Source of the DNA: Gemmatimonadota bacterium
GTDB lineage: Bacteria; 4572-55; J002
DNA: 56,178 nt
NCBI GenBank assembly: GCA_003697105.1
Contig: RFFQ01000160.1
Coordinates: 1-56,178 of the forward strand
Reading direction: 5' to 3'
Positions 396 to 26,718 of this stretch are shown piece by piece (positions within the stretch are counted from its first letter, which is position 1; each line of letters starts with the position of its first letter). The notes under the pieces were generated by a model. That model had not been told where the DNA came from and did no database searches. It saw nothing but the letters and a program-made list of their open reading frames with translations. Position numbers and translations under genes: made by a program.

Positions 396-3300
396 TTAAT
401 ACCGTTCCATCAACACTTCCAGACGCACGGCTGCCGCCTGACCCCATTCACTGGCTTCACCTTGATCGGCAATGATTTTACGGTAGATTCGCTTCGCTTC
501 TTCCCATCGCTGCAACTGCTCGTTCGCTAAGCCGGCTTTATACCATGCCGTGATGGGCCAAAGTGGAACATTTGGATATAAATACTTCACTTTTAAGTAT
601 TCTGTAATGGCTTCATCATAATCGCCCATCGCATAATAGCATTCCCCCATCCAATACTGAACTTCGGCGCCGAGTTCAGGATCGTCGGTCTCTAACGCCC
701 GTTGGTAGGCGGCTAATGCTTCGGCATATCGTTCTGCCTCTTGCAGAGCAAACCCGATTTTGTAATGCACTTTGGCAATATCTGGGTGGCGGGGTTGCTT
801 TTCCAACAACATATTATAAGCATCCACTGCCCGATTCCACAAATCCATTTGTTCGTAAGTTAAGCCAAGATTATATCCGGCATCAAACACAAATTCACCG
901 CTCCGGTCATTTTCGACACTATAAGTAAATGCTTTGGCGGCATTCTCATAATCTTGCAACAAAAAGCGGGTAGTTCCCTCATAATAGCTCACTTCCACGG
1001 CTAAGGGTTGTCCGGTGTACTTCGTCATAAACTCGCTGAATTTCTCCACGGCACGTTCGTACTCGTTGCGTTTGTAGTAGTACATCCCCAACCCAAAGAG
1101 GGCATCGTCGGCATATTCACTGGTCGGATAATTTTGAATGACATCCTCAAATGCCCGGCGTGCGGCATCGAGTTCATCATGCTCTAGCAAATAGGCACCT
1201 TGCTCGTAAAATAATCCGGCAATCAGGTTTGTCTCTTTGGGATACTGCTCCCGAAATCGATCCGCCGCTTTACGTGCCGTCTTAATATTGCCCAAGCGGA
1301 AATCACACACAATCTGGCCAAAAATAAAACGGGGTCGCTGCGGGAACTCATGTGCCGCCGCCAAATAGGTATTTTGGGCTTTGGTGATCTCTTCCAATTG
1401 GAGGTATGTTTCAGCCACCGCCTGATATGCTTCGATTTTAAGGGTGCTATCCGGCGTTGTCTCTAGCAATTGTTGGTAACTTTTGAGGGCAGCGCGGTAA
1501 TCCCCGGTTTCGGCGTGTAATTGCCCCACCCGGTAGAGCGACTCTCCGGCGACCTGTGTATTGGGGGATTCCGTTAAACGGGTGAGCGTCTGCACAGCAC
1601 GTTCTTTATCCCCTTGTGCCAAATAGGCGTTTGCCATACCGGAATACGCCTCACCTAAAAAGCGAGATTCCGGGTAGGTTGCGATTAAGCGTTGGTAAGC
1701 ATCCAGCGCTGGTGAAAATTGCCGTAGTTGCAAATAACAATTGCCGATTTCCAGCAAGGCTTGTTCCCCGACTTCACTGTACGGATAGGTATCATAGACA
1801 TTTTGAAAAGCGGTAATGGCACTCTGATACTGCCCTGCCCGTTGTTGGACTTGCGCAATACCAAACTGTGCCAAATAGGTCGAATTCCGATCCGGGTATC
1901 GCGCAACAGCGGCTTCATATTCGACTAGCGCTTGCGCCCGGTTGCCTTGCAATTCATAGCAATACCCAATGTAATACGCCGCTTCATCCGCCCATTCACT
2001 GTTGGCATAGTTGTCACGTAGAGTCTGATATGCCGCCAACGCTTCCGTATAGTTGCCTAATTCGCGCTGGGCATTACCGATCTGCAAATATGCCCAATCG
2101 GCAAACTCACTTTGGGGATAGGTCGCCAAATACATCTGGTAGCGGCGGAGCACCTGCATACTCCGTTCGTAGCCCGGCTGGCGGTAGGAAAGTGCCAAAT
2201 CACTTTCAATGGCTCGAATCTGTGCCTCTGCCGCAAATGGGCTATCGGGGAAATTTTGGGCAACGGCACGATATGCCTCTCCTGCCCGACTCTGGTAAGA
2301 ACGTACCTGAGCCGGCAGGTCTTCCAAGGCGGCTTTTTTGGCCAGCCAGCGGTACGTTTCCCCTAAACGGAATTGGGCATCATCAGCCAACGGGTCTTGT
2401 GGAAATTGTTGGATAAACTTCTCATACAACTGCGCCGCTTTGGCATAATCTTTCAAGTCCTCCCCATAAATCCGAGCGATTTCAAACCGCTGTTGGGAGG
2501 TAATGTTGCCACTGAGCGCCGCCTCCAGAAGGATAAACAATTGCGCCGTAGCGGTTTCATAATCTTTATCCTGATACAGCCGGATATAATCGATCCGCTG
2601 GCGGGCGGTCTCGGCCCACGTGCTGTTGCGATAGGTACTCTCAACGCGCTGGTATTCCTTCACTGCTTGGGCATAGTTGCCCAAATCTTCATAGCATTTA
2701 CCCAATTCAAACTGGGTCTCATCCGCTAAAGGGCTGGACGGATACTGGATCAGCAAATTCTGATATTCCCGAATTGCCATATCCGGCCGGTCTAGCGGGT
2801 AGTGGAAAATTTTCGCAATTTCGGCTTGCACCTGATCGGCTTGGTCTGCTAATGGATAGTCCGCCAGAAATTTGCGGTACGCACTGATGGCATTCTGAAA
2901 TTGCCCGGCGGTTTGGTAAGCGTACCCAATTTCATACTGGGCTTGTTGCGCTAAGTCCGTTTGGGGATAATCCATGATGAACCGCTCAAATTGGCTGATG
3001 GCGGCACGGGTCTGCCCCATTTCCAGTTGCACTTTTGCCAGATCAAACGTTGCCTGCATCCGGAGCGGGCTATCTGTATAGATCGAGAGGAATTGGCGTA
3101 GCGCATTCACCGCCTCCCCATACCGTTTTGCCGCCCAGTGTGCCTTTGCAATCATATATTGAGCGTTATCTGCCAATGCACTCAACGGTTTATCTTCCAG
3201 GAGTCGTTGCCACTCCACAACAGCAGAATCATAATTGGCGCGAGCAAACTCGATCTCGCCCAAACCGTACATAGCATCTTCCTGAATCTCAGCGTTGGGA

Positions 3301-4034
3301 TAGCGGCGAATCACATCTCGATACGCCTGCCGCGCAAGTTCATACTGTCGCTCTTCCGCTAGGGTCTTACCCCGTTGAAAGAGCGCTTTGGGTGCCCATT
3401 CGCTGGCACTGTAACGGGTTGAAATGGCTTCCAGAGCTTGTACAGAATTATCAAAATCCCCTACGCGACGGTAAGCAATCCCCATCTCGTAGAGGGCACG
3501 GGGGGCAAGCTCATGCGCCGGAAAGGTATCCAGCAAACGTTGGTAGGTTAAAATCGCATGTTGCAGATCATTCAATTCTGCATACGAAAAACCGGTTTTC
3601 AAAATGGCTTCCGGCACAGAGCGGTACTGCGGAAAGTTATTTTCCAATTTTTGGAAAATCCGAATGGCTTCACCGTAATCACCCCGTTGGTAGTACGCGT
3701 CGCCAAGCAAAAACGTGGCTTCGGGCACCTTGGGGCTTTGCGGATGTTCGTACAAAAAACGCTGTAAATCCTGAATTGCTTTTTCATAGTTCTTGCCGGC
3801 GTACAAAGACCGCCCTATCCCAAATTTGGCATCTGGAGCATAGATGCTCATCGGGTACTTTTGCAAAAATTCACGATACTGGTTTTCGGACATGACATAA
3901 AGCCCATCTTCATACAGCTTTTGGGCAAATTTCAGATGGGCTTCTTCCTGAGAATCTTGTGCCAGACTCACCGAATAGAAGCTGATGATTATCAAATAGA
4001 TAAACGCGACAGTACATCGAAATGGCATGTTCAT
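396..4034 (-). CDS. Large periplasmic tetratricopeptide-repeat protein
   Basis: About 1212 residues with an N-terminal signal peptide (hydrophobic stretch ending near SLAQD), followed almost wholly by TPR units. Typical signatures recur every 34-38 residues: a G-x-x-Y-x-x-A core followed by a P-x-S-x-x-A-D-x-A linker, as in tol-pal YbgF/BamD-like repeats. Such proteins act as periplasmic scaffolds for envelope complexes; no catalytic domain is visible. The reading frame opens with TTG at 4049, but the GGTGAGG sequence practically touches that codon. ATG at 4034 (MNMPFRC) or ATG at 4028 gives a normal signal peptide, so I chose 4034. It heads a minus-strand unit with the TolA/TonB-like gene 17 nt downstream. 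The partner protein and cargo cannot be read from sequence. Confidence 0.85.
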   Translation of the reverse strand: MNMPFRCTVAFIYLIIISFYSVSLAQDSQEEAHLKFAQKLYEDGLYVMSENQYREFLQKYPMSIYAPDAKFGIGRSLYAGKNYEKAIQDLQRFLYEHPQSPKVPEATFLLGDAYYQRGDYGEAIRIFQKLENNFPQYRSVPEAILKTGFSYAELNDLQHAILTYQRLLDTFPAHELAPRALYEMGIAYRRVGDFDNSVQALEAISTRYSASEWAPKALFQRGKTLAEERQYELARQAYRDVIRRYPNAEIQEDAMYGLGEIEFARANYDSAVVEWQRLLEDKPLSALADNAQYMIAKAHWAAKRYGEAVNALRQFLSIYTDSPLRMQATFDLAKVQLEMGQTRAAISQFERFIMDYPQTDLAQQAQYEIGYAYQTAGQFQNAISAYRKFLADYPLADQADQVQAEIAKIFHYPLDRPDMAIREYQNLLIQYPSSPLADETQFELGKCYEDLGNYAQAVKEYQRVESTYRNSTWAETARQRIDYIRLYQDKDYETATAQLFILLEAALSGNITSQQRFEIARIYGEDLKDYAKAAQLYEKFIQQFPQDPLADDAQFRLGETYRWLAKKAALEDLPAQVRSYQSRAGEAYRAVAQNFPDSPFAAEAQIRAIESDLALSYRQPGYERSMQVLRRYQMYLATYPQSEFADWAYLQIGNAQRELGNYTEALAAYQTLRDNYANSEWADEAAYYIGYCYELQGNRAQALVEYEAAVARYPDRNSTYLAQFGIAQVQQRAGQYQSAITAFQNVYDTYPYSEVGEQALLEIGNCYLQLRQFSPALDAYQRLIATYPESRFLGEAYSGMANAYLAQGDKERAVQTLTRLTESPNTQVAGESLYRVGQLHAETGDYRAALKSYQQLLETTPDSTLKIEAYQAVAETYLQLEEITKAQNTYLAAAHEFPQRPRFIFGQIVCDFRLGNIKTARKAADRFREQYPKETNLIAGLFYEQGAYLLEHDELDAARRAFEDVIQNYPTSEYADDALFGLGMYYYKRNEYERAVEKFSEFMTKYTGQPLAVEVSYYEGTTRFLLQDYENAAKAFTYSVENDRSGEFVFDAGYNLGLTYEQMDLWNRAVDAYNMLLEKQPRHPDIAKVHYKIGFALQEAERYAEALAAYQRALETDDPELGAEVQYWMGECYYAMGDYDEAITEYLKVKYLYPNVPLWPITAWYKAGLANEQLQRWEEAKRIYRKIIADQGEASEWGQAAAVRLEVLMERY

Positions 4035-4104
4035 TATGATGATAGTCAAACCTCACCTAAAGTCCTTAGAGGTAACAAACCTGATAAAATTTCTCACGAG
4101 ATAA

Positions 4105-4313: not shown

Positions 4314-7300
4314 ATGGCTTTCTATCGCGCCGGTCTTGCCACCTATGGGGTGGTATTGGTCTGGCTGATGCTTTTCGGGGGGATCACCACCGCCGCCGCC
4401 CAACCCAACACGGTTACGGTCGTCACAGACAATATGGGGTCTAAGCTTCAAATCGATGGTGCCGATTTTATGGTCATCGGTATGAATTGGGACTATTTCC
4501 CCATCGGCACAAACTATACCTACAGCCTTTGGTCACAACCGGATGATATTATCAGGGATGCCCTCGCCGGGGAAATGTCGCTCCTTAAAGCAATGGGGGT
4601 TAATACCATCCGAATGTATACCGGCGTCCCGCCGCGCTGGGTACAATACATTTATGAGGAATATGGGATTTATACGGTACTCAACCATTCGTTTGGACGG
4701 TATGGTGTCACCATAGATGGCGTCTATACCTACGCCACCAATTATGCCGACCCGCGGACCCGACAATTCCTGTTGGATGAAGTCAAAGCAATGGTCAATG
4801 AGTTCAAGAATACCCCGGGACTATTGATGTGGTTGCTTGGCAATGAAAATAATTACGGTTTGGTGTGGAGTTCTGCCGAAACAGAAGCCCTACCCGAAGG
4901 TGAGCAACAAGCCGCAAAAGCCCGCTATATGTACTCGCTGTTTGGGGAAGCCACCCGCCTGATTCAATCCATAGACACCAACCATCCGGTATCTATGGCA
5001 AACGGCGATATTCAATATCTGGATATTATTGCTGAAGAAGTTCCGACACTGGATATTTTCGGGACGAATGTGTATCGTGGGATTTCGGTAGGGGATCTGT
5101 TTCAAGATGTCAAAGAGAAGATGGGCATACCGGTGATGTTCACCGAATTTGGTTGCGATGCCTATAACGCGAAGGAAATGCGGGAAGATCAGTATCATCA
5201 GGCGCAAATTTTGTTGGGACAATGGCAAGAGATCTACGAGCAATCCTATGGTAAAGGACGGGTGGGCAACGCCATTGGCGGCTTAACCTTTCAATTTAGT
5301 GATGGCTGGTGGAAATATTTACAAGAAGAAAATTTAGATGTACACGATACCCATGCCTCCTGGCCCAACGGGGGGTATCCCTTTGATTATGTGGAAGGTG
5401 AAAATAACATGAACGAGGAATGGTGGGGCATTTGCGCGAAGGGTCCCACCAACGAGCGCGGACTTTACCAACTGTACCCGCGCGCCGCGTATTACGCCTT
5501 AATGCGGGCGTATGAACTTCAGCCGTATGATCCAGAAACAACGCTGGAGACAATCCGGGCTCATTTTGGGGGATTGAACCCGATGGTTGATGTCTTGCGG
5601 GCACGGGGTGATAATGCCGCTTTAACCGCCCAACGCCTCCAAAAGGTGCGGGTCAGCGGGTTGCGGATGGAATTTGAGACCATCAGCAGCGGCGGTAACA
5701 ACGTGAGCACCCCCGATAACCTAATTGCTGGGGAAGAAGGTACTTACCCTGCCTTTAAGGGGTTCGATCATCTGCAATCCTATTACGTGGATGTGGAAGC
5801 GAAGCCCGCAGATAATGTGCGGGCAACCGTTTCCATCAATTATTTGGGGCACGTGCCGGTGAATCCGATAGACGAAATCTTTTACGAAAATCGTGGCCGC
5901 CCGAAAACCGTCTTAACCCCCGATGGACGGAGCGAACTCAGCGACATCGAACGGTTAAAGGTCTATAATGCCAGTGTCTCATGGGAAAGTAAATGGTTTA
6001 ACCTTGATGGATTCTATCGCACCGGACATTATCATTGGGGATATGAAGGTGACTTTTTCGGATTGTACCGGGAAGCGAACTACGGACCCAACATCGATAC
6101 GTACAACGGTGAAGCACCACTTGGTATTGAAGTAACGGGCAAAAAAGCACTTACCGGGCTGAAAATCGCCTACGGGCCCGAACTCTGGTGGGGGGCAAAT
6201 CCGGCAGTATTGATGAAATACCAACGGCGGGTAGGTCCGTTCCAAATGACCGGTATCGTTCAAGAAGATATAGATAATCAGGTGGGTGCGGTTAGTTCCT
6301 TTGCCGTACCGGAACCGACGAATCGCAAGGCAACCCTCCATCTAAAGACGACCCGAGGAATTTTCGGTGTGGAAGTGGGCGGTATTATGTCCGGCCAAAC
6401 CAAAATTGATGAGACATTTCAGGTCATCCGTGGCTCGGAGGGGAATTACACCGTCTATCAAGATCAAATTAAAATGGAAGATACCTTTGGCGGCAAAATT
6501 AAACTCACCGCTACCAAAGGAAAAATAAAATGGTATGCGCAAGGCGCCGCCATGGGTTTGGTTGCCGATGGTGGACCCGATGCGACCCAAACTTACACGG
6601 GCTGGCGGCTCAAAGATAGCGGCAGTGGGAATCAATGGAACATTTTAAGCGGCTTTACGTACAATATCAATAGCGCGTGGCAAGTTGCACCCAATTTCCT
6701 TTGGCAAAAACCGGTTGAAGGACCGATCCCGGCCGGTGTACCGGCGCCCGGCAAACCGCGCAATATTTTGGATGACCCCTTTGCCGTGCGCAGCAACCGT
6801 GAAACGACCGCCGGCGAACTGCTCATCACTTACGACCCCACACCGGGCTCGTGGATGTACGCCTGGGATAGCGATGAAAAAGAAGATGCGAAACTCGCCG
6901 CCAGCGTCGGGTTTGTTTTCCGCCACCAACCTACCACTCAAGATGCCGCTATCGGGATTCTGGGGGATGGTCGTACAACGTTCGCCTTTGATGGCGCACC
7001 GCCGGCGCGGGATGTGTGGGAAGCATACGCTCGGGTCGTCTCTAAATTTCGTCCCGATATGGGTCTGATCGCCAATCTGTATGGCGGAATCGGTGAACCC
7101 AACGGCAATGATGCGCGCGAAATCACGCGATACGGGGTGGATGTCCGGCTCGCACTCCAACACATCAAAATTCAAACCTCCGTGAAGATCGACGATTGGG
7201 GTCCCTATGATTACCACCGCGATTTTAATTTGACGTATCCTTTGCAACTAGAAGCTGATGTCTCGCATGTTCTGGGTAAAATCGATTGGTTTGATGTCCC

Positions 7301-7478
7301 CCAAACCCGCTGGGGAGTCAATGTCAAATGGCGATCACTGGATCGAAACTCTCCCCGCTATTGCCCAGTGGAAGTGGTGAACGATATTGGTGTGCTGGAA
7401 TGCGATCCCACGGCCCCCGGTCAGGATGAGGGCAACGAATGGGAAATCCGAACCTATCTGCATGTGAACGTGCGCTAA
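4314..7478 (+). CDS. Exported GH2/clan-A-like TIM-barrel glycosidase fused to a predicted outer-membrane beta-barrel
   Basis: 1054 residues; ATG 4314 follows GAGGAGG. Signal peptide about residues 1-29 (ends TTAAAQ). Residues about 35-410 form a TIM-barrel like the catalytic domain of GH2 and other clan-A enzymes: GNEN with probable acid/base E178, and VMFTEFG with probable nucleophile E278, about 100 residues apart as expected for strands 4 and 7. Residues about 440-1054 are not a usual binding module. They show repeated 9-14-residue strands alternating polar/hydrophobic, aromatic girdles, tight Asn/Gly/Asp turns, and a final strand EIRTYLHVNVR, as in outer-membrane porins. First gene of a unit controlled by the shared operator, 30 nt ahead of GH3. 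Context (GH16, GH17) suggests a beta-1,3-glucan substrate. The glycosidase assignment is solid at clan level; family and substrate are uncertain. Confidence 0.8.
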   Translation: MAFYRAGLATYGVVLVWLMLFGGITTAAAQPNTVTVVTDNMGSKLQIDGADFMVIGMNWDYFPIGTNYTYSLWSQPDDIIRDALAGEMSLLKAMGVNTIRMYTGVPPRWVQYIYEEYGIYTVLNHSFGRYGVTIDGVYTYATNYADPRTRQFLLDEVKAMVNEFKNTPGLLMWLLGNENNYGLVWSSAETEALPEGEQQAAKARYMYSLFGEATRLIQSIDTNHPVSMANGDIQYLDIIAEEVPTLDIFGTNVYRGISVGDLFQDVKEKMGIPVMFTEFGCDAYNAKEMREDQYHQAQILLGQWQEIYEQSYGKGRVGNAIGGLTFQFSDGWWKYLQEENLDVHDTHASWPNGGYPFDYVEGENNMNEEWWGICAKGPTNERGLYQLYPRAAYYALMRAYELQPYDPETTLETIRAHFGGLNPMVDVLRARGDNAALTAQRLQKVRVSGLRMEFETISSGGNNVSTPDNLIAGEEGTYPAFKGFDHLQSYYVDVEAKPADNVRATVSINYLGHVPVNPIDEIFYENRGRPKTVLTPDGRSELSDIERLKVYNASVSWESKWFNLDGFYRTGHYHWGYEGDFFGLYREANYGPNIDTYNGEAPLGIEVTGKKALTGLKIAYGPELWWGANPAVLMKYQRRVGPFQMTGIVQEDIDNQVGAVSSFAVPEPTNRKATLHLKTTRGIFGVEVGGIMSGQTKIDETFQVIRGSEGNYTVYQDQIKMEDTFGGKIKLTATKGKIKWYAQGAAMGLVADGGPDATQTYTGWRLKDSGSGNQWNILSGFTYNINSAWQVAPNFLWQKPVEGPIPAGVPAPGKPRNILDDPFAVRSNRETTAGELLITYDPTPGSWMYAWDSDEKEDAKLAASVGFVFRHQPTTQDAAIGILGDGRTTFAFDGAPPARDVWEAYARVVSKFRPDMGLIANLYGGIGEPNGNDAREITRYGVDVRLALQHIKIQTSVKIDDWGPYDYHRDFNLTYPLQLEADVSHVLGKIDWFDVPQTRWGVNVKWRSLDRNSPRYCPVEVVNDIGVLECDPTAPGQDEGNEWEIRTYLHVNVR

Positions 7479-7508: not shown

Positions 7509-9701
7509 ATGAACCGGTCTCAACACATCGAATCAAAAATACGTGAGTTAATCGATCACATGTCCATTGACGAGAAGGTCGGTCAACTGACCCTGATAAC
7601 GAGTGCAGAGGGGCAGATACCCGATTCCTTGCGCGAGGACATCATCGCGGGTCGAATTGGTGGCATATTGAACGAAACCCAGCGGGAGGTCATCCATGAA
7701 CTTCAACGAATTGCCACTGAAGAGAGCCGCCTCGGCATTCCACTGTTGGTCGGGCGGGATGTGATTCACGGCTTCAAAACAATTTTTCCGATCCCGTTAG
7801 GACAAGCGGCAACGTGGAATCCGACTCTTATTGAACAAGCGGCACGGATTAGTGCGCAGGAAGCCGCATCCACCGGTATCAATTGGACATTTGCCCCTAT
7901 GATGGACATCGCGCGAGACCCGCGTTGGGGGCGCATCGCGGAATCCCTCGGAGAAGACCCCTATTTGACGGGCGTTCTCGCCGCTGCAATGATACGGGGT
8001 TTTCAGGGAACAGACCTTTCCGCACCCGACAGTATTGCCGCCTGTGCCAAACATTTTGCCGGGTACGGCGCAAGCGAAAGCGGGCGGGATTACAACACCA
8101 CTAACATCCCAGAAAATGAGCTCCGAAACGTCTATTTACCCCCATTCAAAGCGGCAGTGAATGCCGGTGTCGCCTCAGTGATGACCTCCTTCAGCGATAT
8201 TGACGGCGTACCCGCCACCGCCAACGAAAAACTGCTCCGGCACATCCTGCGGGACGAATGGCAGTATGATGGACTGGTTGTCAGTGATTGGGATGCCATC
8301 TACCAACTGATTGAGCATGGATTGTGCGCCAATAGTAAAGAAGCCGCTTATGAAGCCGCAAACGCCGGCGTTGATATGGAGATGTTTAGCCAAACGTACC
8401 GCGAACACCTGCCCGAATGGGTTGCCGAGGGTAAACTATCTATGGCACAAATCGATGCTCTGGTTGCAAATGTCCTACGGATGAAATTCCGGTTGGGGCT
8501 ATTTGACCAACCTTATACGCGGGCAGAAGATTTCCCACCGGTTGCCAATGCCAGTTTCCGGCAAGCGGCATATCAGACGGCGTTGGAGAGCATCGTTTTG
8601 TTGAAAAATGAAAACCACGTGTTGCCGCTCTCTAAAACAGAGTTGCCCACACTGGCAGTTATGGGACCCTTGGCGGATGATGGTTACGAACAACTCGGTA
8701 CCTGGATTTTTGATGGTGATACCGCCCTCAGCCAAACCCCGTTACAAGCTTTACGAGCGGCAATGAACGGCGAGAATAGCCTCCGCTATGCCCGCGTGAT
8801 GGAAACAACCCGCCAAAATACACGTGAAGGTTTTGCCGGAGCAATCCAACTGGCAAAGCAATCAGAGAAAATCCTGCTTTTTCTCGGCGAGGAGTCGATC
8901 CTTTCCGGCGAGGCACATTGCCGCGCGGACATCCGCCTGCCGGGCAATCAGGAAGAATTAATCCACGAATTGGCGAAACTCGGCAAACCTTTGATCGTCG
9001 TCATCATGGCGGGCAGACCGCTGGCATTGCAAAACGTGATCGACAAGATTGATGCGCTATTGATGGCATGGCATCCGGGTACCATGGCAGGAACGGCAAT
9101 TGCCGATCTGCTACTGGGAAATGCCGCCCCATCCGGCAAACTACCGGTCACTTTTCCGCGAGTAACCGGTCAAATTCCGATCTATTACAATCAAAAAAAT
9201 ACAGGACGTCCGGCAACACCAGAAACCTACATCCACATTGATGAGATTGAACGCGGCGCACCCCAAGTATCACTGGGCAACACCTCATACCATTTTGATG
9301 TGCATTATACACCGCTTTTTCCGTTTGGGTTTGGCTTGTCGTACACCCAGTTTGAGTACCGTCATCTGCAAGTGAATCCATCGGAAATCAAATTAGGAGA
9401 GTCGATTACCATCCGTGCTAACATCCGAAACACTGGTGAGCGGGAAGCTGCGGAAATCGTGCAACTTTATGTGCGCGACCTCGTGGGCAACGTCACCCGT
9501 CCGGTGAAAGAACTCAAAGGATTTCAGAAAATCCGCTTGCAGCCCGGTGAGCAAACAACTGTAACGTTTAACCTGAGTACAGACGAGTTGGCATTTTATA
9601 ACCGTAACATGGTGCGAGTTACCGAACCGGGGGATTTCCATGTCTGGATTGGCAGCAGTTCTGCTACCGGATTGCGGGGGGAGTTTGCCATCATCCCCTG
9701 A
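7509..9701 (+). CDS. GH3 beta-glucosidase, cytoplasmic
   Basis: 730 residues, no signal peptide, so it probably hydrolyses imported beta-gluco-oligosaccharides in the cytoplasm. Seen: N-terminal TIM-barrel with GRDVIHGF, FAPMMDIARDPRWGR, a KHF motif near residue 181 and VVSDW containing the nucleophile D260. The alpha/beta sandwich domain contains SGEAHCR, whose E468 aligns by motif with the acid/base of BglX-like enzymes. A C-terminal fibronectin-III-like domain starts near residue 620 (SYTQFEY onward). Length and order are those of BglX/Bgl3-type enzymes without a PA14 insert. It lies 30 nt after the GH-barrel gene and shares its promoter. GH3 members act on beta-1,2/1,3/1,4/1,6 bonds; neighbours favour beta-1,3-oligosaccharides. 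Confidence 0.93.
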   Translation: MNRSQHIESKIRELIDHMSIDEKVGQLTLITSAEGQIPDSLREDIIAGRIGGILNETQREVIHELQRIATEESRLGIPLLVGRDVIHGFKTIFPIPLGQAATWNPTLIEQAARISAQEAASTGINWTFAPMMDIARDPRWGRIAESLGEDPYLTGVLAAAMIRGFQGTDLSAPDSIAACAKHFAGYGASESGRDYNTTNIPENELRNVYLPPFKAAVNAGVASVMTSFSDIDGVPATANEKLLRHILRDEWQYDGLVVSDWDAIYQLIEHGLCANSKEAAYEAANAGVDMEMFSQTYREHLPEWVAEGKLSMAQIDALVANVLRMKFRLGLFDQPYTRAEDFPPVANASFRQAAYQTALESIVLLKNENHVLPLSKTELPTLAVMGPLADDGYEQLGTWIFDGDTALSQTPLQALRAAMNGENSLRYARVMETTRQNTREGFAGAIQLAKQSEKILLFLGEESILSGEAHCRADIRLPGNQEELIHELAKLGKPLIVVIMAGRPLALQNVIDKIDALLMAWHPGTMAGTAIADLLLGNAAPSGKLPVTFPRVTGQIPIYYNQKNTGRPATPETYIHIDEIERGAPQVSLGNTSYHFDVHYTPLFPFGFGLSYTQFEYRHLQVNPSEIKLGESITIRANIRNTGEREAAEIVQLYVRDLVGNVTRPVKELKGFQKIRLQPGEQTTVTFNLSTDELAFYNRNMVRVTEPGDFHVWIGSSSATGLRGEFAIIP

Positions 9702-10389: not shown

Positions 10390-13300
10390 TTACCGCAATT
10401 CAATTTCGATGCACTTTACCGAGCGATTCCGAATCTGAGTCACAATGTCTCCATCAAGACAATCTCCTTGAAACGTCTGCACCGAATCCTCTTGATCGAC
10501 CACAATCCATTCTGCCGGAGAAACCGCCCCCATTCCAAACGTATCTTTGCGCGCCGGATTGTGGTACACCACCAAAACAGACCCCAGAAACATAAAGCTG
10601 AACGTATTCGCCGACAATTCAACTTCCTGCCATGTGCCACCCACCTTCAACCGGTGGGTGTGGGATGTTGTGGTGAACAGCCATCCCGGTAGTGCCGGGT
10701 TTAACTTTAGTTGCAATGCGCCATCTGGATGAACCTGAAACGGCGTTTGTCCCACCGCCATGATCATCAAGATATTAATAAACTCTGCCGTGGCGCCACT
10801 TAACCGGGCGACAAACCCGTTACCGTGAATCGACGGGTCCGGGTTGGCACTGCTGACAATAAATGAAGAATTTTCCAGAATACTTCTACCGTAAATTTCA
10901 GGGTTAAAAAACGGTACAAAAACATGCCGGAAATCATGATAAAACGCAGTGTAGAAGCCATTTTTCAGGAGTTCCAACATGTACTTATATTCCATGTGCA
11001 ACCAAATCGACTCATTTTCAAACCAACCCGGTGAAAAGGTGCGGGCACGTCCTATTTCCATAGGTTCCCGCGCTAGGGATTCGTTTACTTTGAACATCTT
11101 TAAATGGCGGTCATACAAGCTACTTTTTCGGAGATTTACAATCAACTTGCGGGAGGTTTCCGTTCCGGGATGGCACCGCAAGAAATGGACAGGACCTTCT
11201 AAGAAGAGGGGCAACGCCCGCGATTCAAATCGCTTTGCCCGAAAACAGGGCAACCCGTTTTCATTGTGCTTGACCTGCCCCTGTTCGTTGGTGATGATCT
11301 CATAATCCACCACCGTATTGATAAAATAAGTCGATAAAACCCCATTTTCCGGGTTCCAGGCGTTATCAATACCATCATTTACGATGCGAAGTGCCGTAAT
11401 CAGATACGCTTTAATATCCGAAATGGGAACGGGTGATTCATGACCCCGGATACCGAACCGGGTGGATTGCCGGTAATCTTCTTTTGCCGTGGTGGCGCGA
11501 TCCCAAAAGTCATAAGGGGATAAATCTTGGCGGAAAAGCGTGTACCACCGGGTCATAAATAGTTCCAATTCTTCAAAAATATAGAATAGCGTATCCGGCG
11601 GAAGCGTATCCAGTGCCGCTTGTAAAAATAGAATGTGCCGTTTGATTTCTAACGTCTCGCTAACACTGGAACCAATCAATCCCGGCAGACCATTAAGCGC
11701 ATCATACCAGTTGGGTTTATCGGCTTCCATCTCCACCCCAATACCGGCGGGGTCGAGCGATGCCAGCTTGTTGGTGATCAGGCAAAGCAGTTTAACAAAC
11801 AAAGTGGTCTGGTACACCTCACCGTTGCCCCAATCAGTACGAACCTGATGCCGCCAAGAGGCACGTTTGTTAAGGAGGGCTTCTTTTTCTTCATCCCACA
11901 CCACCGCGTTAAGTTGCATGGGTTTGCCTTCCCATATCACATATTTATCATCACGGGATTGCACCCGGTGCGCGTTATCGTAAAACGTAAAGGTCTTTTT
12001 TTCAAACAGTAGATGCTGTTTCTTTTCAGGATAGAGCGCCAGATAGTTTTCGATCAAATCCAGATTATACGTCCAGTGATCTGTCCAGAAGCCCTCGCCA
12101 TGTTCCGCATCGTGATGTTTTTGGCAAATACCTAACAGGTCACCCAAGAACATTTCCGGGTCGCCGTTAAGGTGAATCTCCCGCTGATTTAGTTCGATCA
12201 TCAACTCGCCGGGGGTAAACGGTTCTTTCAAGAGGGCACGCACTTCTGCCACCGAACCCGCCTCCAGATAATCCGCCAACACAGCCGCTAACCGGTTTGC
12301 ATCCGGGCAGGTAAACCGGGTTTCTTTAATCACCAACGGGTTAAATCCGTCCAATTGGATCAAATTGACAAACTGTTCCACATTTCCATCACCCACATCA
12401 GGGTTGAAAAAGAGGTCACACCGCCGGTTCTGATTCACATCGCGGAAATTACCATTTCCTTGGGAATAGGGAGTGGGGGTCAGGCGGAAGTCGTTATAGT
12501 CGCGTTCCAGATCGCCATGCTTACGGGAGTACAAATGGAGGGTTGACCGCCCTTGTTTTCCTGTCAGGGTATAGGGAAAACCGCCCCGGAGCACATTATC
12601 CAAAAAATTTTGACGGGCATAGAAGTTCAATGCCGGTTCATTACTAAAAATAAAGTTATGTTGGGTTAATTCATCGATCAGTTCCTGATTTTCAACAAGC
12701 TTAGTGTCAATGTAAGCGGGTTTGGTGATCCGCGGAATCCGCTCATTTAAGGCGGCTACGGAATGGGCATGTCCAATGATGGAGGTGAACGTATAGCAGG
12801 AATGGGGGTCAATCGTGGTCTGAAAAAGCCCCATCGCACATGGTAACCGGTTTTCCAGCATTTGCCCGGCGAGCAATTCGTCACCTGCGCCCATCAAAAA
12901 CCGTTCAGGATAATCGTAATTTCCCCGCCGTCCAAAAATATGTTCGGGGTCAACAAGGGTGGGTGCAATCTGCCCATCAACCTCAAATCCGACATAAAAA
13001 TTGCCTTTTTGGATGCGCACCACATCCGGGCGGTCTGCCGGTTCCACTTTGCCCTTAAAAAACGGCACGTGATGGTCTAGGTTGGTAACCTCTACAAATG
13101 CCTCTACCAAGCGCCGCATATTTTTCAACCCGAAATTGTCGATCCCGTACGGGATAATCAAGGGTAACCCATCCAGCCCTTCCACTGCTATTTTGGACGC
13201 TGTGATATTCTCAATCCGGAGCCGGCGCACCAGACCGGCATATTCCGCATTGGGGATGGTGAAATACTCCACGGTCATGTTCAAACCAAGTGTGGGGTTC

Positions 13301-13674
13301 TTTTCTTCTAGGATTACATGAGCCGGTTGGATGGTCAGCCGTTGGGTGCGCTGCATGTGTTTATCTCTAAGATGATCCTGAAACGGCTCATAAAACTGGT
13401 TCTGAACTTTGAGAAAGGTACGAAATCCCTGTGACGGTACCAGTTGATATGCCCAATTTGCCGGCAGAAACTCCATGATGGGGTGGTGTTTGCCTTCAAT
13501 GCCCATACTGCACACACATTGTCCCCGGTTCACATAAAACACCCACATGGGAATACCACTCTTACCCGCCACACCGGGGAAAAAGCTGGCAAATAATTTA
13601 GCGGAATTATAATTTTCGATGACAACGTCACCGGTGCTGGTAAGATGATAGGATGGAGTTTTTGGATACATCAT
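10390..13674 (-). CDS. GH94/GH149/GH161-like inverting glycoside phosphorylase (probable beta-1,3-glucan phosphorylase)
   Basis: 1094 residues, no signal peptide, so cytoplasmic. ATG 13674 follows AAAGGAC. The N-terminal beta-sandwich (IPMWVFYVNRGQ, then a PANWAYQL segment) leads into an (alpha/alpha)6 barrel with WTDHWTYNLDLIENYLA near residues 525-545. This is the organisation of clan GH-Q phosphorylases annotated as cellobiose phosphorylase. Such enzymes split beta-glucosyl bonds with phosphate, giving alpha-glucose-1-phosphate and saving ATP. At about 1.1 kaa it is longer than usual GH94 cellobiose phosphorylase (about 800) and matches GH149/GH161, families founded on beta-1,3-oligoglucan phosphorylases. 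GH16, GH17 and GH3 neighbours support beta-1,3 specificity. It is the last gene of the minus-strand operon, 18 nt after the ABC genes. Confidence 0.8.
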   Translation of the reverse strand: MMYPKTPSYHLTSTGDVVIENYNSAKLFASFFPGVAGKSGIPMWVFYVNRGQCVCSMGIEGKHHPIMEFLPANWAYQLVPSQGFRTFLKVQNQFYEPFQDHLRDKHMQRTQRLTIQPAHVILEEKNPTLGLNMTVEYFTIPNAEYAGLVRRLRIENITASKIAVEGLDGLPLIIPYGIDNFGLKNMRRLVEAFVEVTNLDHHVPFFKGKVEPADRPDVVRIQKGNFYVGFEVDGQIAPTLVDPEHIFGRRGNYDYPERFLMGAGDELLAGQMLENRLPCAMGLFQTTIDPHSCYTFTSIIGHAHSVAALNERIPRITKPAYIDTKLVENQELIDELTQHNFIFSNEPALNFYARQNFLDNVLRGGFPYTLTGKQGRSTLHLYSRKHGDLERDYNDFRLTPTPYSQGNGNFRDVNQNRRCDLFFNPDVGDGNVEQFVNLIQLDGFNPLVIKETRFTCPDANRLAAVLADYLEAGSVAEVRALLKEPFTPGELMIELNQREIHLNGDPEMFLGDLLGICQKHHDAEHGEGFWTDHWTYNLDLIENYLALYPEKKQHLLFEKKTFTFYDNAHRVQSRDDKYVIWEGKPMQLNAVVWDEEKEALLNKRASWRHQVRTDWGNGEVYQTTLFVKLLCLITNKLASLDPAGIGVEMEADKPNWYDALNGLPGLIGSSVSETLEIKRHILFLQAALDTLPPDTLFYIFEELELFMTRWYTLFRQDLSPYDFWDRATTAKEDYRQSTRFGIRGHESPVPISDIKAYLITALRIVNDGIDNAWNPENGVLSTYFINTVVDYEIITNEQGQVKHNENGLPCFRAKRFESRALPLFLEGPVHFLRCHPGTETSRKLIVNLRKSSLYDRHLKMFKVNESLAREPMEIGRARTFSPGWFENESIWLHMEYKYMLELLKNGFYTAFYHDFRHVFVPFFNPEIYGRSILENSSFIVSSANPDPSIHGNGFVARLSGATAEFINILMIMAVGQTPFQVHPDGALQLKLNPALPGWLFTTTSHTHRLKVGGTWQEVELSANTFSFMFLGSVLVVYHNPARKDTFGMGAVSPAEWIVVDQEDSVQTFQGDCLDGDIVTQIRNRSVKCIEIELR

Positions 13675-13692: not shown

Positions 13693-14679
13693 TTAGCCGC
13701 CGTGTAAAAAGCAACGGACAAAGTGGTTATCCGCTAATTTTGTTAGGGGAGGCATCTGCTCCCGGCATTGGGGGGTGGTATGTGGGCAACGACTGGCAAA
13801 GGGACAGCCCCGGCTTTCCGGCCGCCACGTGGGAATCTCTTTTTTTTCGACTTCAGGTAGAGAAATACGCGAACCCCGTTTATGCGGGTCGGGCACTGCC
13901 GAAAGGAGTAATTGCGTATAGGGATGTTGGGGGTTTGAGGTTACATCACGGCTGTCACCGGTTTCTACCATGTGACCCACGTACATCACCGCAATCTCCT
14001 CCGTGAAGTAGCGGGCAGTGGCAATATCATGCGTAATGTACAAAAAGGCGGTATTAAAGTCCTCTTTCATCGCTTCCATCAAATTCAAAATACCCAGCCG
14101 GATGGAAACATCTAGGGCGGAGGTCGGTTCATCCGCCAAAACCACTTCCGTACCGAGCGCCAATGTTTTGCCGATACACACCCGTTGGCGCTGCCCGCCA
14201 CTCAGTTGGTAGGCATATTTTTTTGCCGTTTGCTCTACCGGAATTAGACCGACTTTTTCCAACACAGAATAGACCTTATCCTCCAGTTCGGATTTATTTT
14301 GAACAATCTTGTGGATTTGCAACGGGCGGGCAATATGATGAAAAACCGTATGCACCGGATTCAAAGCGCCGTACGGGTCTTGAAAAATCATTTGCACCTT
14401 CCGGCGGTATGCCATGACGGACGCTTTGTCCGTAAATGTGGCAATATCATTCCCTTGGAACAAAATCTCACCGGCAGTTCGCGGATATTGCAAGGAGATC
14501 ACCCGTGCAGAAGTGCTTTTGCCGCTCCCGGATTCCCCCACGATCCCTAACGCACGCCCCGGATAAAGATTGAATGAGACATCGTTCACCGCCCGCATGT
14601 ACTGCTTCGTAAAAATGCCCTGTTTGGTGGGGAAGTCCTTGACCAAATGGCGAACTTCCATGATCGGCTGAAGGCTCAT
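13693..14679 (-). CDS. Opp/Dpp-type ABC transporter ATP-binding protein (OppF/DppF-like)
   Basis: 328 residues. ATG 14679 overlaps the stop of the upstream ATPase (TGATG), indicating translational coupling; a GTG one codon earlier is possible. Walker A GESGSGKST, Q-loop IFQDP, signature LSGGQRQR, Walker B VVLADEPTSALD and H-loop THD are intact, so the ATPase should be active. The C-terminal oligopeptide-type extension carries the usual Cys cluster (CPFASRCPHTTPQC and a later C). Such ATPases pair with a DppD-like partner to drive import of peptides or, in several thermophiles and plant-polymer degraders, beta-gluco-oligosaccharides. The position inside a glucan operon favours sugar import. 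Confidence 0.93.
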   Translation of the reverse strand: MSLQPIMEVRHLVKDFPTKQGIFTKQYMRAVNDVSFNLYPGRALGIVGESGSGKSTSARVISLQYPRTAGEILFQGNDIATFTDKASVMAYRRKVQMIFQDPYGALNPVHTVFHHIARPLQIHKIVQNKSELEDKVYSVLEKVGLIPVEQTAKKYAYQLSGGQRQRVCIGKTLALGTEVVLADEPTSALDVSIRLGILNLMEAMKEDFNTAFLYITHDIATARYFTEEIAVMYVGHMVETGDSRDVTSNPQHPYTQLLLSAVPDPHKRGSRISLPEVEKKEIPTWRPESRGCPFASRCPHTTPQCREQMPPLTKLADNHFVRCFLHGG

Positions 14680-15674
14680 CACTCCGCTCCTCCTTCAGGT
14701 GTGGGGAACAGGTGGCACGCCACCTGCCGTCCGGGTTCAATCTCGATTAAGGGTGGGTTTTCTCGTTTACAAATATCCATACATGCCTCACAGCGAGGGG
14801 CAAAATAGCAACCGGGCGGCGGGTCCCACAGGTTCACCGGAAAACCGGAAATCCCGCTTAGTACCTTTTTCTCCCCGCTTAATAACGGAAACGAGTTGAT
14901 CAGCCCATTTGTGTACGGATGTTTGGGATCAAGGATGACCTGTTCAGATGTCGCCAATTCCACAATTCGCCCCCCATACATGATCGCGATCCGGTCGGAA
15001 ATTTCGCCCAACAGACTCAAATCATGGGTAATCAGGAGAATTGTAAAGCCAAATTGGTGTTTCAGTTCCTCCAGTTTTGCCATGATTTCCCGCTCAACCA
15101 CCACATCGAGCGCGGTCGTCGGCTCATCCATAATAATCATTTGGGGGTCGAGTGCCAACGCAATGGCAATCACGACCCGTTGGCGCATCCCGCCACTAAA
15201 TTGATGGGGATAATCGTTCATCCGATCCGGGCTGATACCGACTCGTTCCAGAAGGTTTGCCGCTTGTGCCACGGCGTCTGCTTTGGAAATATTCCGGTGC
15301 GCTAAAATGACATCGCACATTTGGTCGCGGATGGAGACCACCGGATTGAGGCAGTTCATCGCGCTTTGAAACACCACGCTAATATCGTTCCAGCGGATAC
15401 GACGCAAGCGCTCCTCGTCCATGCAGAGAATATCCTCACCATTAAATATCACCTCGCCCTCCGGAATCAATGCCGGCGGCTTGTGCAGACGCAAAATGGA
15501 AAACGCCAGCGTACTTTTGCCACAGCCGGATTCACCCGCCAGACCCAGGGTTTCCCCCCGCTTGACCGTCAAATTGACCCGGTCAACCGCTCGGACGGGT
15601 TTTTTCTCCGTCAAATAGTCCACGCAAAGATTGCGAATTTCCAAGATAGTACCGGTGGATGATCCTTGATTCAC
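14679..15674 (-). CDS. Opp/Dpp-type ABC transporter ATP-binding protein (OppD/DppD-like)
   Basis: 331 residues. Walker [11 protein letters not shown]-loop [11 protein letters not shown], signature FSGGMRQR, Walker [13 protein letters not shown] and H-loop THD are complete. The C-terminal extension contains [14 protein letters not shown], the Cys-rich motif typical of OppD/DppD. Its start overlaps the end of the permease gene by 4 nt and its stop overlaps the next ATPase gene, so the ABC genes are translationally coupled. It forms a heterodimer with the 13693 product under the two permeases. The family is certain; an oligosaccharide substrate is inferred from neighbours. Confidence 0.93.
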
Positions 15675-16810
15675 GCCAACTCCTTATCATTTCTTGCTTT
15701 TGCTAACCGTTTTTGTTGAATCTCGTTATACCGTTTTTTCCATAAACCCATATTACCGCCGCCTTTTAATTGCGGGTTGCTGACATAATCCATACCCATG
15801 TTCAGCAGAGCCAACCCCCCGCCAAAGATCGAGATGGTAATGGCAGGTGCTAACATCTCCCACCATGCCCCGACGATCAAAGCGGAGTTGTTTTGTGCCC
15901 ACAGAAGCATTGTACCCCATGTTACGACGCTGGGGTCACCTAAACCGATGAATTCCAAACCGGCTTCCGCCAGTACCGCATATAGCGTTGTCCCCACAAA
16001 CTGACCGGCAATCAGGTTGATAACATTGGGCACCATTTCCACAACAATAATGCGCCATTTGGATTCACCAATTGCTTCGGCGGCGGTAATAAACTCCCGT
16101 TTTCGGATGGATAAGGTTTGAGAACGGAGTACCCGGGCGCCCCACGCCCATGAGGTCACACCAATGATGATGGCAATGGAATGCGGTCCGGCTTCACCTA
16201 AAAATGCCGCCAGCACTAAAATCAGCGGTAAATTCGGGATAACCAACACCACGTTCATCATAAACACCAGCAATTCATCCACTTTACCGCCCATATATGC
16301 CGCCGTCACACCCATTAACACCGCGATCACGGTTCCGATCAGCCCCGCACCAAAGCCAACCAGTAGAGAAATCCGCGCCCCATAAATCAATTGGCTCAAC
16401 ACATCCTGACCGGCGCGAGTTGTACCCAGCCAATGCCGGCGGCTGGGAGGCTCATGCCCCGGATCGTGACGGGAATAGCCCGCAATCCGTTTTTGCAGTG
16501 GTAGCGGTATTTCGGTACCGGTTTGGGTCTCAATGGTGCGGAGGAACTCATGCTTATCTTCAAATCCGTGCCCTTTTAAGGCGGCTAAAGTGGCTTCTAT
16601 TTCGGCAGACATTCCCTCTATTCCGGCTAATTTTTCGAGGGTTTCATCTGTAATTTTGTATTTAATTGGGTCGCGTTCCAGCGCACCGTACGGCGCAATG
16701 AGCGGAGCAAACACCGCCAGCAATACAAACGTGCCGATAATAGTCGCACCGATCACCGCCGGCGAGTTGCCCTTAAAAAAGCGGATTATACTTTCGAGAA
16801 ATCGACTCAT
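15671..16810 (-). CDS. ABC transporter permease (OppC/DppC-like) with a long periplasmic insertion
   Basis: About 379 residues from ATG 16810 (GTG 16819 is possible but has no SD). N-terminal helix near residues 15-42, then a charged region of about 80 residues (KYKITDETLEKL through GHEPPSRRHWLGT), then the usual permease core with the EAA-type motif (EAIGESKWRIIVVEMVPN). Ordinary DppC proteins are about 280-300 residues, so the insertion makes this one longer; it probably faces the periplasm near the binding protein. Overlaps the DppD-like gene by 4 nt and follows the DppB-like gene by about 17 nt. Confidence 0.9.
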   Translation of the reverse strand: MSRFLESIIRFFKGNSPAVIGATIIGTFVLLAVFAPLIAPYGALERDPIKYKITDETLEKLAGIEGMSAEIEATLAALKGHGFEDKHEFLRTIETQTGTEIPLPLQKRIAGYSRHDPGHEPPSRRHWLGTTRAGQDVLSQLIYGARISLLVGFGAGLIGTVIAVLMGVTAAYMGGKVDELLVFMMNVVLVIPNLPLILVLAAFLGEAGPHSIAIIIGVTSWAWGARVLRSQTLSIRKREFITAAEAIGESKWRIIVVEMVPNVINLIAGQFVGTTLYAVLAEAGLEFIGLGDPSVVTWGTMLLWAQNNSALIVGAWWEMLAPAITISIFGGGLALLNMGMDYVSNPQLKGGGNMGLWKKRYNEIQQKRLAKARNDKELA

Positions 16811-16827
16811 TTCAATCACTCATTATT

Positions 16828-17802
16828 TCATTGACGAAGCCGCGGATCCAGCCAGAGATAAAGCAAATCCGCCACAAAATTAGCTACCAGAACACAGATC
16901 ACGATGATCAGCATCAGTGCCTGAATTAATGGGTAATCACGCACCATCACGCCTTTGAGCATCAGGTTGCCTAAACCCGGGTAATTAAAAACAATCTCCA
17001 CAAAAATTGCCCCACCGACGATAAAGGCAATCGCCATGGATACCGCGGTGATAACCGGTAAAATTGCATTGCGAGCGGCATACTGGAACATCACCCGCCG
17101 CCGGCTCAGACCCTTGCCAACCGCCATACGGATGTAATCCTCACTTAACAAATGGATCATGCTGTTCCGCATGTGAAACAGCCAGCCGCCAATGCTGATC
17201 AGCACCATCGATAAAATCGGCAGAATAGCGTGATAGAGTACATTACCGATAAAGGTTAGATTCCAGCCGGGGTCAAGGTCGGGGTCATAGCCATAAGAGA
17301 TGGGAAACCATTCCAGCACCAGCCCGAAGATGTAAAAAAGAATCATCGCCATGACGACTGCCGGAAACGCACCCAGCACTAAAAATGTCGGGGATGCCAG
17401 TTTATCAAACCAACCCCCTTGATGGTAGGCGGCATAAATGCCCATCAAACTCCCAATAAGAATACTGATAAGGGTGGCAGAGCCTGAAATAAACAGCGTC
17501 CATGGGAGGGCATAGCCGATCACCTCCGAAACCGGCGTAGGGAAAAACAGAACACTTGGACCCAAATCCCACGTGAAAACACTCTTTAGATACGCGCCAT
17601 ATTGCACGTACCAGGGTCCCTCCACAAAGCCATATTGCGCCTTCAACGCCGGTAACTGCTCCGGCGTAATCTTGCCCTGTGCGGCGGCAAACATGATCTC
17701 AAACGGGTCACCGGGCATTAGGCGCGGTAGGGCAAAATTCACGGTAATTGCCACTAAAAACGCCGCCAGATAAAACAGAAACCGTCGAACTAAAAAACCC
17801 AT
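16828..17802 (-). CDS. ABC transporter permease (OppB/DppB-like)
   Basis: 324 residues, standard DppB length. An N-terminal helix is followed by a periplasmic loop with LPRLMPGDPFEIM, characteristic of OppB/DppB, then five further helices and the cytoplasmic coupling loop (RMAVGKGLSRRRVMFQYAARN). It forms the membrane channel together with the 15671 product. It is 11 nt downstream of the binding-protein gene. Nothing unusual is seen in the sequence. Confidence 0.93.
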   Translation of the reverse strand: MGFLVRRFLFYLAAFLVAITVNFALPRLMPGDPFEIMFAAAQGKITPEQLPALKAQYGFVEGPWYVQYGAYLKSVFTWDLGPSVLFFPTPVSEVIGYALPWTLFISGSATLISILIGSLMGIYAAYHQGGWFDKLASPTFLVLGAFPAVVMAMILFYIFGLVLEWFPISYGYDPDLDPGWNLTFIGNVLYHAILPILSMVLISIGGWLFHMRNSMIHLLSEDYIRMAVGKGLSRRRVMFQYAARNAILPVITAVSMAIAFIVGGAIFVEIVFNYPGLGNLMLKGVMVRDYPLIQALMLIIVICVLVANFVADLLYLWLDPRLRQ

Positions 17803-17813
17803 AGCATACCCCT

Positions 17814-19460
17814 TTAGCGCAGATGTAAGTGGTTGATTAAAATAACCCGTTCCCCGGCATCATAAAAATTAGGATTGATGTACGGATTATCTTCGGTGGG
17901 CCAACCGACAAACCGCTTTGTGGTGTACTGGTACCATGTCGGATTGGAGAACACCGGAATAATCATCAAATTTTGGGCGACAACTTCCTGCAACTGACTA
18001 ATGATTCGTCGTTGTTCTGCTTCATCCCGAACGGTGACGTACCGGTCTAGCAGACTATCGACAGCGGCAGCGCTCCAACCATGCTTGGCTTCAAAAACAC
18101 CGGCTTTATCAATGTTTTGAGAGTGCAAAAGCGGGGCGTAAAAGCGATACGGCGTGACACCGGTCATCCCATACAACATCCCCACCTCAAATTCACGATT
18201 ATTCCAATTGCTAACATACTGCCCCCATTCAACCGTCTTGGTTTTCGCATTAACCCCCACGTATTTGAGGTCTTCCGTGATCATCTGCACGCTTTGAATC
18301 CAATCCGTCCACCCACTGACAACCATGATCGAGAACTCAATCGGTGACCCATCTTTATTTTCACGGATGCCGTCGCCATCGGAATCGATATACCCCGCGT
18401 CGTCCAGTATCTGTTTCGCTTTTTCGGGGTTGTATTCATTCAACCAATCATATTTTTGATTAACGTCATCATCATACCACGCCGCAAAAAAATCACCGAT
18501 CCCCGTGATGTGCGGGTTGAGTGAAGCATAGCCGTATGTTGCCAGCTCGACTACGCTTTCCCGATCCAGTGCCAGACTAAATGCCTGCCGGAAGTTCAGG
18601 TCGTCCAGCGGTGGCTTATCCAGATTGAGGTTTAAGAAAATCGGTGATCCCGCCGGATACCAATAGCGATTGTGCTCGGGGTCTTTTGCCACGAACGTTT
18701 TCTCAATATCGGGGATAAAATTAGAACCCCAGTCAATTTCCCCGCGGATCAAAGCGGCTTGTACTTGCGCGTTACTTTGGTATTGGCGCAGCCGGACACA
18801 ATCGATATACGGCTTGCCCTCTTCCCAATAATAGGGGTTACGACAGACGGTGATTTGATACGGGCTGAAACGTTTCACCTCCGTAAAGGGTCCCGATCCC
18901 ACCGGATGTTTATTGGTAAATAATTCGGGATTTTCAACATTCTGCCAGATGTGCTTTGGGACAATGTATTGGCTAGGGATCGACCATTCAACCGTTGTAT
19001 TCACTTGCGTCAGATGAAACCGAACCGTGCGGTGATCCACTTTTTCTACCCATTTGATTTTCGGAGTCTCTCCCACGAACAGTCCCGCCACATCAACTGC
19101 CGGGAATTTTTTCGCCATCTCGAAGGTAAAAATCACGTCATCAGCGGTCAGCGGCGTACCATCCGACCAACGCAGACCCTCCCGTAAATAATAAGTGATA
19201 GAGAGGAGGTCATCCGAATACTCAAAATGTTCGGCTAGGCGGTACTCGATGCGATTTTGGCGGAAATTATAGACGACCAGAGGCTCATAAATAAACCCCG
19301 GCGCCGGACTGCGGTTTACATTTTGGGTATAGGGATTGAAATTTTCAATAAAAGCGATGGTAAGAACGGGACCATCGATGGTTCCACCCCGTTTTTGCGC
19401 AAAGAGAGGTATGGAAAACATCAGTAACACGATGAGGACGGCGATAAGGGTATGTTTCAT
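17814..19460 (-). CDS. Family 5 extracellular solute-binding protein
   Basis: 548 residues with a cleavable signal peptide (MKHTLIAVLIVLLMFSIPLFAQ) and no lipobox, so a free periplasmic protein. The SBP_bac_5 signature is clear: LREGLRWSDGTPLTADDVIFTFE near residue 100 and later DLNFRQAFSLALDRE. A DSDGDGIRENKDG stretch is a calcium-binding-like loop often seen in this family. It delivers substrate to the DppBCDF-like importer encoded directly downstream. Family 5 proteins bind peptides, nickel or beta-gluco-oligosaccharides; the locus points to the last. It is 17 nt downstream of the GH17 gene. Confidence 0.92.
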   Translation of the reverse strand: MKHTLIAVLIVLLMFSIPLFAQKRGGTIDGPVLTIAFIENFNPYTQNVNRSPAPGFIYEPLVVYNFRQNRIEYRLAEHFEYSDDLLSITYYLREGLRWSDGTPLTADDVIFTFEMAKKFPAVDVAGLFVGETPKIKWVEKVDHRTVRFHLTQVNTTVEWSIPSQYIVPKHIWQNVENPELFTNKHPVGSGPFTEVKRFSPYQITVCRNPYYWEEGKPYIDCVRLRQYQSNAQVQAALIRGEIDWGSNFIPDIEKTFVAKDPEHNRYWYPAGSPIFLNLNLDKPPLDDLNFRQAFSLALDRESVVELATYGYASLNPHITGIGDFFAAWYDDDVNQKYDWLNEYNPEKAKQILDDAGYIDSDGDGIRENKDGSPIEFSIMVVSGWTDWIQSVQMITEDLKYVGVNAKTKTVEWGQYVSNWNNREFEVGMLYGMTGVTPYRFYAPLLHSQNIDKAGVFEAKHGWSAAAVDSLLDRYVTVRDEAEQRRIISQLQEVVAQNLMIIPVFSNPTWYQYTTKRFVGWPTEDNPYINPNFYDAGERVILINHLHLR

Positions 19461-23054: not shown

Positions 23055-23124
23055 GGTAACCTCCTGACAAGTTATAAGTAAAAAAATTGTGAATGAATTA
23101 GCGTACCGGTAACAGCGGCACAAA

Positions 23125-26694: not shown

Positions 26695-26718
26695 ATAAGA
26701 CACCCGCTTACGTAGTAA

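Follow-up and report, generated by a model that had tools for sequence, protein, structure and literature searches.

Can a glycosidase and an outer-membrane barrel be parts of the same polypeptide chain and, if so, does the barrel serve as the pore through which the sugar enters? This question was raised by an open reading frame at positions 4314-7478 (+) of a 56,178-nucleotide stretch of bacterial DNA (the window). The initial annotation had described its product as a clan-A TIM barrel followed by about 600 residues with porin-like strands. Here, we analyzed this gene, its relatives, and their loci by sequence comparison and structure prediction.

Gene structure and domain order

The frame at 4314-7478 (+) is intact and uninterrupted (1054 codons, 1054 amino acids) and occurs as a single copy in the window's genome. 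Its product starts with a predicted signal peptide, continues with a clan GH-A TIM barrel, and ends with a predicted barrel of about 600 residues. The signal peptide (residues 1 to about 29, ending ...TTAAAQ; 4314-4400, +) is SPI-like, lacks a lipobox, and ends with AAA-Q; residues 2-28 form a helix in the structural model. A strict lipobox was present in none of 77 fusion relatives. The two halves are connected by linker helices in the model (residues 406-444; 5529-5645, +), and two barrel-less relatives (L120, L121) end by alignment at about residues 433-440. The full-length AlphaFold2 model (58 full-length homologues) reached a pLDDT of 79 and a pTM of 0.67, and at this pTM the placement of the enzyme relative to the barrel is uncertain. 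The 77 relatives whose frames we read, among the best 80 of at least 581, each carry one uninterrupted frame and several of them come from isolates, so that the fusion is not an assembly artefact. Thus, the presence of a glycosidase and an outer-membrane barrel in a single chain is strongly supported.

The catalytic half

The catalytic TIM barrel comprises residues 34-405 (4413-5528, +). Pfam assigned a GH2-type TIM barrel (PF02836, 35.2 bits) to residues 83-288 and a sub-threshold GH72 match to the same region, but there was no Pfam match beyond residue 291. The two glutamates that had been proposed as catalytic residues in the initial annotation were supported as such. E178 belongs to a GNEN motif (N177-E178; 4842-4847, +) and is the predicted general acid/base, and E278 (TEFG; 5145-5147, +) is the predicted nucleophile. 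N177, E178, and E278 are invariant across 58 full-length sequences, and in the AlphaFold2 model E178 follows strand beta4 and E278 is located at the end of beta7. This is the catalytic layout of GH158 and GH157, which are endo-beta-1,3-glucanase families. Foldseek searches with the enzyme half returned members of GH158 and GH157 as best fold matches (E about 1e-13). When the enzyme-half profile was compared with solved chains, BuGH158 (6pal) ranked first (E 1.3e-9) with the catalytic regions aligned. The GNEN motif lines up with the catalytic NE motif of BuGH158, a proven endo-beta-1,3-glucanase in which N136, E137, and E220 are essential (PMC7157763), and E278 aligns with the TEWG/TEFG motif of solved GH158 chains.

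Although 6pal is the best PDB match of this profile, the identity to it is only about 16% and GH2 enzymes match weakly too. At such low identity we do not claim GH158 membership; by sequence, the enzyme half probably forms a clan GH-A family of its own or else a distant branch of GH158. A GH2 identity was considered and rejected: the N-terminal sugar-binding/sandwich domains of GH2 enzymes are lacking and the TIM barrel begins right behind the signal peptide. From the fold and the neighboring genes, we infer that the fusion protein is a beta-1,3-glucanase. In RefSeq, the Bacteroides finegoldii copy is named 'glycoside hydrolase family 2 TIM barrel-domain containing protein'. Since this name refers to the TIM barrel only, the barrel goes unnoticed.

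The barrel half

The C-terminal half (residues 445-1054; 5646-7475, +) is predicted to form an outer-membrane beta-barrel of 24-26 strands. When it was modelled alone (AlphaFold2, 77 sequences), we obtained a barrel of 26 beta-strands with a pLDDT of 85 and a pTM of 0.83. Two strands (701-708 and 711-718) are short, show hardly any amphipathicity, and may form an outer hairpin; for this reason the strand number is given as 24-26. On one side of the barrel the turns mostly involve 2-3 residues (59 residues in all) and on the opposite side there are loops of up to 36 residues (267 residues in total). Such an asymmetry between turns and loops is the usual pattern of outer-membrane barrels. Both barrel termini are located on the short-turn side of the model. 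The modelled strands show an alternation of inside and outside hydrophobicity with a mean of 1.29, compared with 0.73 ± 0.10 when residues were permuted within strands, and none of 5000 permutations reached 1.29. The terminal strand (1040-1053) is amphipathic, as the initial annotation had noticed. All of the top 50 Foldseek matches of the C-terminal half are outer-membrane barrels, including MOMP, BtuB, FepA, AlgE, LptD, chitoporin, and OmpF. However, the TM-scores did not exceed 0.37 and none of the solved barrels matched the full circumference. Thus, amphipathic strands and the turn and loop pattern of outer-membrane barrels are both present, and a closed barrel is suggested by the matches of the model to such proteins.

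These data bear on the possibility that the C-terminal half is a soluble beta-rich module. No Pfam or PDB sequence family was found to cover this region and the TM-scores to solved barrels are modest, as would be expected for such a module. The confident model, the exclusive Foldseek matches to outer-membrane barrels, the alternating amphipathicity, and the turn and loop pattern speak against it and make it a very improbable explanation. A beta-sandwich or a beta-helix was not obtained. With these results, the porin-like strands of the initial annotation stand as a predicted barrel. The 14-18 strands anticipated there are too few, and the barrel proper begins at about residue 445 and not at 430. 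In the search for a Pfam family of the barrel, the matches were weak and scattered and were judged to be chance; DUF6882, for example, matched 11 of the 77 members with a best E of 7e-4. There was no match to the Plug domain (PF07715) in the fusion protein, which with 24-26 modelled strands versus 22 is not SusC-like.

Strand residues that face inward are better conserved than those facing outward (0.76 vs. 0.61). The outer loops equal the enzyme in conservation (0.75 vs. 0.74) and several of them reach 0.93-0.96, which is unusual for a porin. Among the 267 loop positions, 99 show a conservation of 95% or more (19 of these are aromatic residues or His), and the long conserved loops are rich in Trp, Tyr, and His. 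Because both the inner faces and the outer loops are highly conserved, the barrel is probably more than an anchor. Loops of this kind might act like a carbohydrate-binding module, and the barrel would then be a scaffold that binds the polymer, keeps it at the surface for the enzyme, and is closed to transport. Other binding proteins are encoded in the same loci, which would fit a binding role. However, a wide membrane barrel is costly for this purpose, the inward strand faces are conserved as well, and the locus would be left with no outer-membrane route of its own. We consider a closed scaffold improbable.

Distribution of the fusion protein and barrel-less relatives

Scanning one genome per species, we found at least 581 relatives of the fusion protein. 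The best 80 of these share 56-68% identity and nearly all are full-length. Their hosts include metagenome-assembled genomes of Bacteroidota, Gemmatimonadota, Ignavibacteriota, Calditrichota, KSB1, Zixibacteria, Krumholzibacteriota, Delongbacteria, and Eisenbacteria, as well as isolates. Cultured Flavobacterium species and a gut Bacteroides are among the hosts of the fusion, and relatives occur in the cultured bacteria Flavobacterium degerlachei, Cloacibacterium rupense, and Bacteroides finegoldii. The fusion was present in 29 of 297 sampled Bacteroidota genomes (about 10%) and in 24 of 200 sampled Gemmatimonadota genomes (12%); no relatives were found in two genomes of the window's own phylum.

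The initial annotation had proposed a search for stand-alone homologues of each half, and the outcome differed for the two. The barrel apart from the enzyme was not found in about 500 sampled genomes, and a profile search revealed no stand-alone barrel in 198 genomes of Bacteroidota and 200 of Gemmatimonadota. One short frame (Gemmatimonadota genome G461) was considered as a candidate and rejected since it stops at a contig end; the short or broken frames that we met correspond to contig ends, split contigs, or damaged copies. The enzyme alone was detected in four genomes of the Bacteroidota sample (52-59% identity), and in three of them (L120, L121, L123) it is a lipoprotein according to its lipobox. 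In the tree, the four barrel-less enzymes are nested within the fusion clade, where they occupy two separate positions; the placement of L120 has moderate support (93/90) with a bootstrap that had not fully settled. In the fourth (L122:2025-3626; G132 contig 314), the enzyme is naturally truncated by a stop codon, and a degenerate barrel start (E 1e-6 to the barrel profile) follows immediately behind it. Because of the nested positions and this remnant, the fusion seems to have come first, and the barrel seems to have been lost on at least two occasions. These natural variants provide a built-in comparison.

Genomic context

The divergent neighbor of the fusion gene (396-4049, -) encodes a 1217-aa protein that consists almost entirely of tetratricopeptide repeats. 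On the other side of the fusion gene follows a GH3 beta-glucosidase without obvious signal peptide (7509-9701, +; PF00933/PF01915). Further downstream, we found a cytoplasmic GH161-type beta-1,3-oligoglucan phosphorylase (10390-13674, -; phmmer to the GH161 chain 9qqk, E 4e-221) and an ABC importer of the oligopeptide/oligosaccharide type with an SBP_bac_5 binding protein (13693-19460, -; PF00496, PF00528, ATPases and second permease assigned by sequence). These are followed by a GH17 beta-1,3-glucanase-like protein with signal sequence (19478-20554, -; PF00332) and by a repeat protein with a T9SS C-terminal sorting domain (20667-23123, -; PF18962, phmmer to the PKD-domain protein 8qx6, E 3e-9), which is a candidate surface glycan-binding protein. 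An MFS_2 (GPH-type) sugar transporter (23125-24696, -; PF13347), a GH16 laminarinase-like lipoprotein (24620-25426, -; PF00722, lipobox LGGC), a ROK-family regulator (25423-26703, -; PF00480), and a second lipoprotein (26719-30207, -; Big_2) complete the locus. The last of these belongs to the same cluster as the protein at 20667-23123 and carries several copies of a binding-type repeat (AAPTPTVPAENVISLFSNAY...) shared with it, of which the lipoprotein has more copies. The central repeats of both proteins had no Pfam assignment.

We compared 88 loci, which comprised 80 relatives (the best of at least 581), seven comparison loci, and the window. The binding-repeat cluster is the commonest neighbor of the fusion gene (63 of 88 loci), and GH16 (60), phosphorylase (37), and GH17 (34) clusters also recur. 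The conserved neighbors among fusion loci comprise GH16, GH161/GH149, GH17, GH3, MFS, and binding repeats. A cluster of about 957 aa beside many fusion genes, considered as TonB receptor, was actually a Y_Y_Y/LuxR-type regulator. The B. finegoldii locus reads DUF6377, fusion, hypothetical protein, GH16, fimbrillin, hypothetical protein, and BglX, with no SusC/SusD annotated. Its contig (L144, NZ_OY725931.1) is labelled 'plasmid 29'; since rpsA, mazG, and ribonuclease Z are encoded on it, it is more likely to be part of the chromosome.

Relation to SusC/SusD systems

The statement of the initial annotation that this locus lacks SusC/SusD was correct: neither is encoded there. SusD was not found in the window's genome, but there are 22 TonB-dependent receptors with Plug domain elsewhere in it. 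When we searched with one SusC and one SusD sequence, both proteins were found beside only one (L013) of 80 fusion loci, the best of at least 581. A Pfam scan of 111 further large neighbors gave no Plug or SusD match among families with at least two members, single-member families being covered in part.

The beta-1,3-glucan locus of B. uniformis (1,3GUL) encodes a regulator, SusC, SusD, SGBP-B, GH16, GH158 (BuGH158, PDB 6pal), and GH3 (PMC7157763). Several Flavobacterium loci show the similar order regulator, fusion, binding protein, GH16, GH3, the B. finegoldii locus is likewise parallel to it, and the fusion therefore occupies the place of SusC, SusD, and GH158. Both BuGH158 and the enzyme of the fusion are of clan GH-A and show the NE...E catalytic pattern, and both loci contain GH16 and GH3. 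What are three proteins in 1,3GUL is a GH158-like enzyme and a barrel in one chain here, and this barrel is unrelated in sequence to SusC. The proposal that the fusion could replace SusC/SusD is plausible and fits the comparative evidence: the pair was found beside only one of the 80 fusion loci searched with one SusC and one SusD, and one barrel-less lipoprotein enzyme (L121:2119-9562) lies directly behind SusC, SusD, and GH16. A one-for-one replacement does not hold, since no SusC/SusD was seen near the other three barrel-less loci in the DNA searched.

Possible functions of the fusion protein

We lean towards the reading that the fusion serves as a processing pore for (laminarin-like) beta-1,3-glucan in the outer membrane and stands in for the SusC, SusD, and stand-alone GH158 proteins that Bacteroides species encode in their beta-1,3-glucan loci. 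From the computed single chain, both folds, the conservation, and the locus context, we infer activity and transport. After Sec export, the BAM machinery would insert the C-terminal half, which would form a wide barrel with about 24-26 strands. The GH158-like endo-beta-1,3-glucanase would remain tethered at the mouth of this barrel. The polymer would be captured and nicked by surface binding proteins and the GH16 lipoprotein. A glucan chain would then enter the barrel, steered by conserved aromatic and charged residues of the loops and the inner wall, and would be cut by the fused enzyme. The resulting oligosaccharides would cross the inner membrane via the ABC or the MFS transporter and reach GH3 and the GH161 phosphorylase. 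One of the 22 TonB-dependent receptors encoded elsewhere could also carry the sugar, which counts against a pore.

Enzymes joined to outer-membrane barrels exist among EstA-type autotransporters (PMC3546941), and the fusion is therefore not categorically new. Like EstA (type V secretion), it combines an N-terminal soluble enzyme and a C-terminal barrel in one chain. The barrel might thus only secrete the glucanase and anchor it at the surface, and the sugar would enter otherwise, for instance through one of these TonB-dependent receptors. The lipoprotein nature of three barrel-less enzymes, in which anchoring seems to be the need that was retained, agrees with such a display. However, EstA-type proteins join a GDSL esterase to a 12-stranded barrel, whereas here a glycosidase precedes 24-26 strands, and the Autotransporter domain (PF03797) matched none of the 77 barrel halves. 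According to the model and the alignment, strand 1 begins only about 12 residues after the portion that the fusion has in common with barrel-less enzymes, which makes threading of the enzyme through the barrel tight, though possible. In addition, the inner wall and the loops are far more conserved than a mere anchor requires, and the search with one SusC and one SusD gave no alternative transporter locally. We regard surface display as rather unlikely but as deserving more weight than a closed scaffold. For the processing pore, the enzyme may reside in the periplasm or outside (threaded in an autotransporter-like manner). The periplasm is the default location of a domain ahead of the first barrel strand.

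Glycan porins are built from about 14-18 strands and do not carry an enzyme. The fusion resembles chitoporin, CymA, and other glycan porins in that its barrel is proposed to pass oligosaccharides, and chitoporin is among its Foldseek matches. LptD, another of these matches, is a similarly large, 26-stranded barrel, but it exports lipopolysaccharide, has a periplasmic jellyroll and an LptE plug, and no sequence similarity to the fusion was detected. The initial annotation knew of no characterized enzyme-porin fusion of this kind. Our full-text literature search for glycosidase-barrel fusions returned nothing relevant and the barrel differs from the EstA type, but with EstA the statement does not extend to enzyme-barrel fusions in general.

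Laminarin ranks among the main storage sugars of algae, and in Bacteroidota SusC/SusD is usually considered responsible for taking it up. The fusion family suggests an alternative outer-membrane route for it. If the processing pore is real, an algal or fungal sugar polymer would be cut and admitted by a single protein. We judge the chances to be balanced that this is a widespread TonB- and SusCD-independent mode of glycan uptake, in which an endo-glucanase and a very wide channel are united and the polymer is cut while entering. For structural and membrane-insertion studies, the family offers a new kind of large barrel.

Two minor observations concern other genes of the window. With its listed GTG start, the MFS transporter (23125-24696, -) overlaps the GH16 gene (24620-25426, -); translation more likely begins at an internal ATG (MSSQQHYETAPED...). 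The frame of a flippase-like membrane protein enters a perfect short repeat (GGRRKDEGGRRKDEG...) at its C-terminus (about 45816-45900, -), which suggests that its end is a read-through into tandem-repeat DNA.
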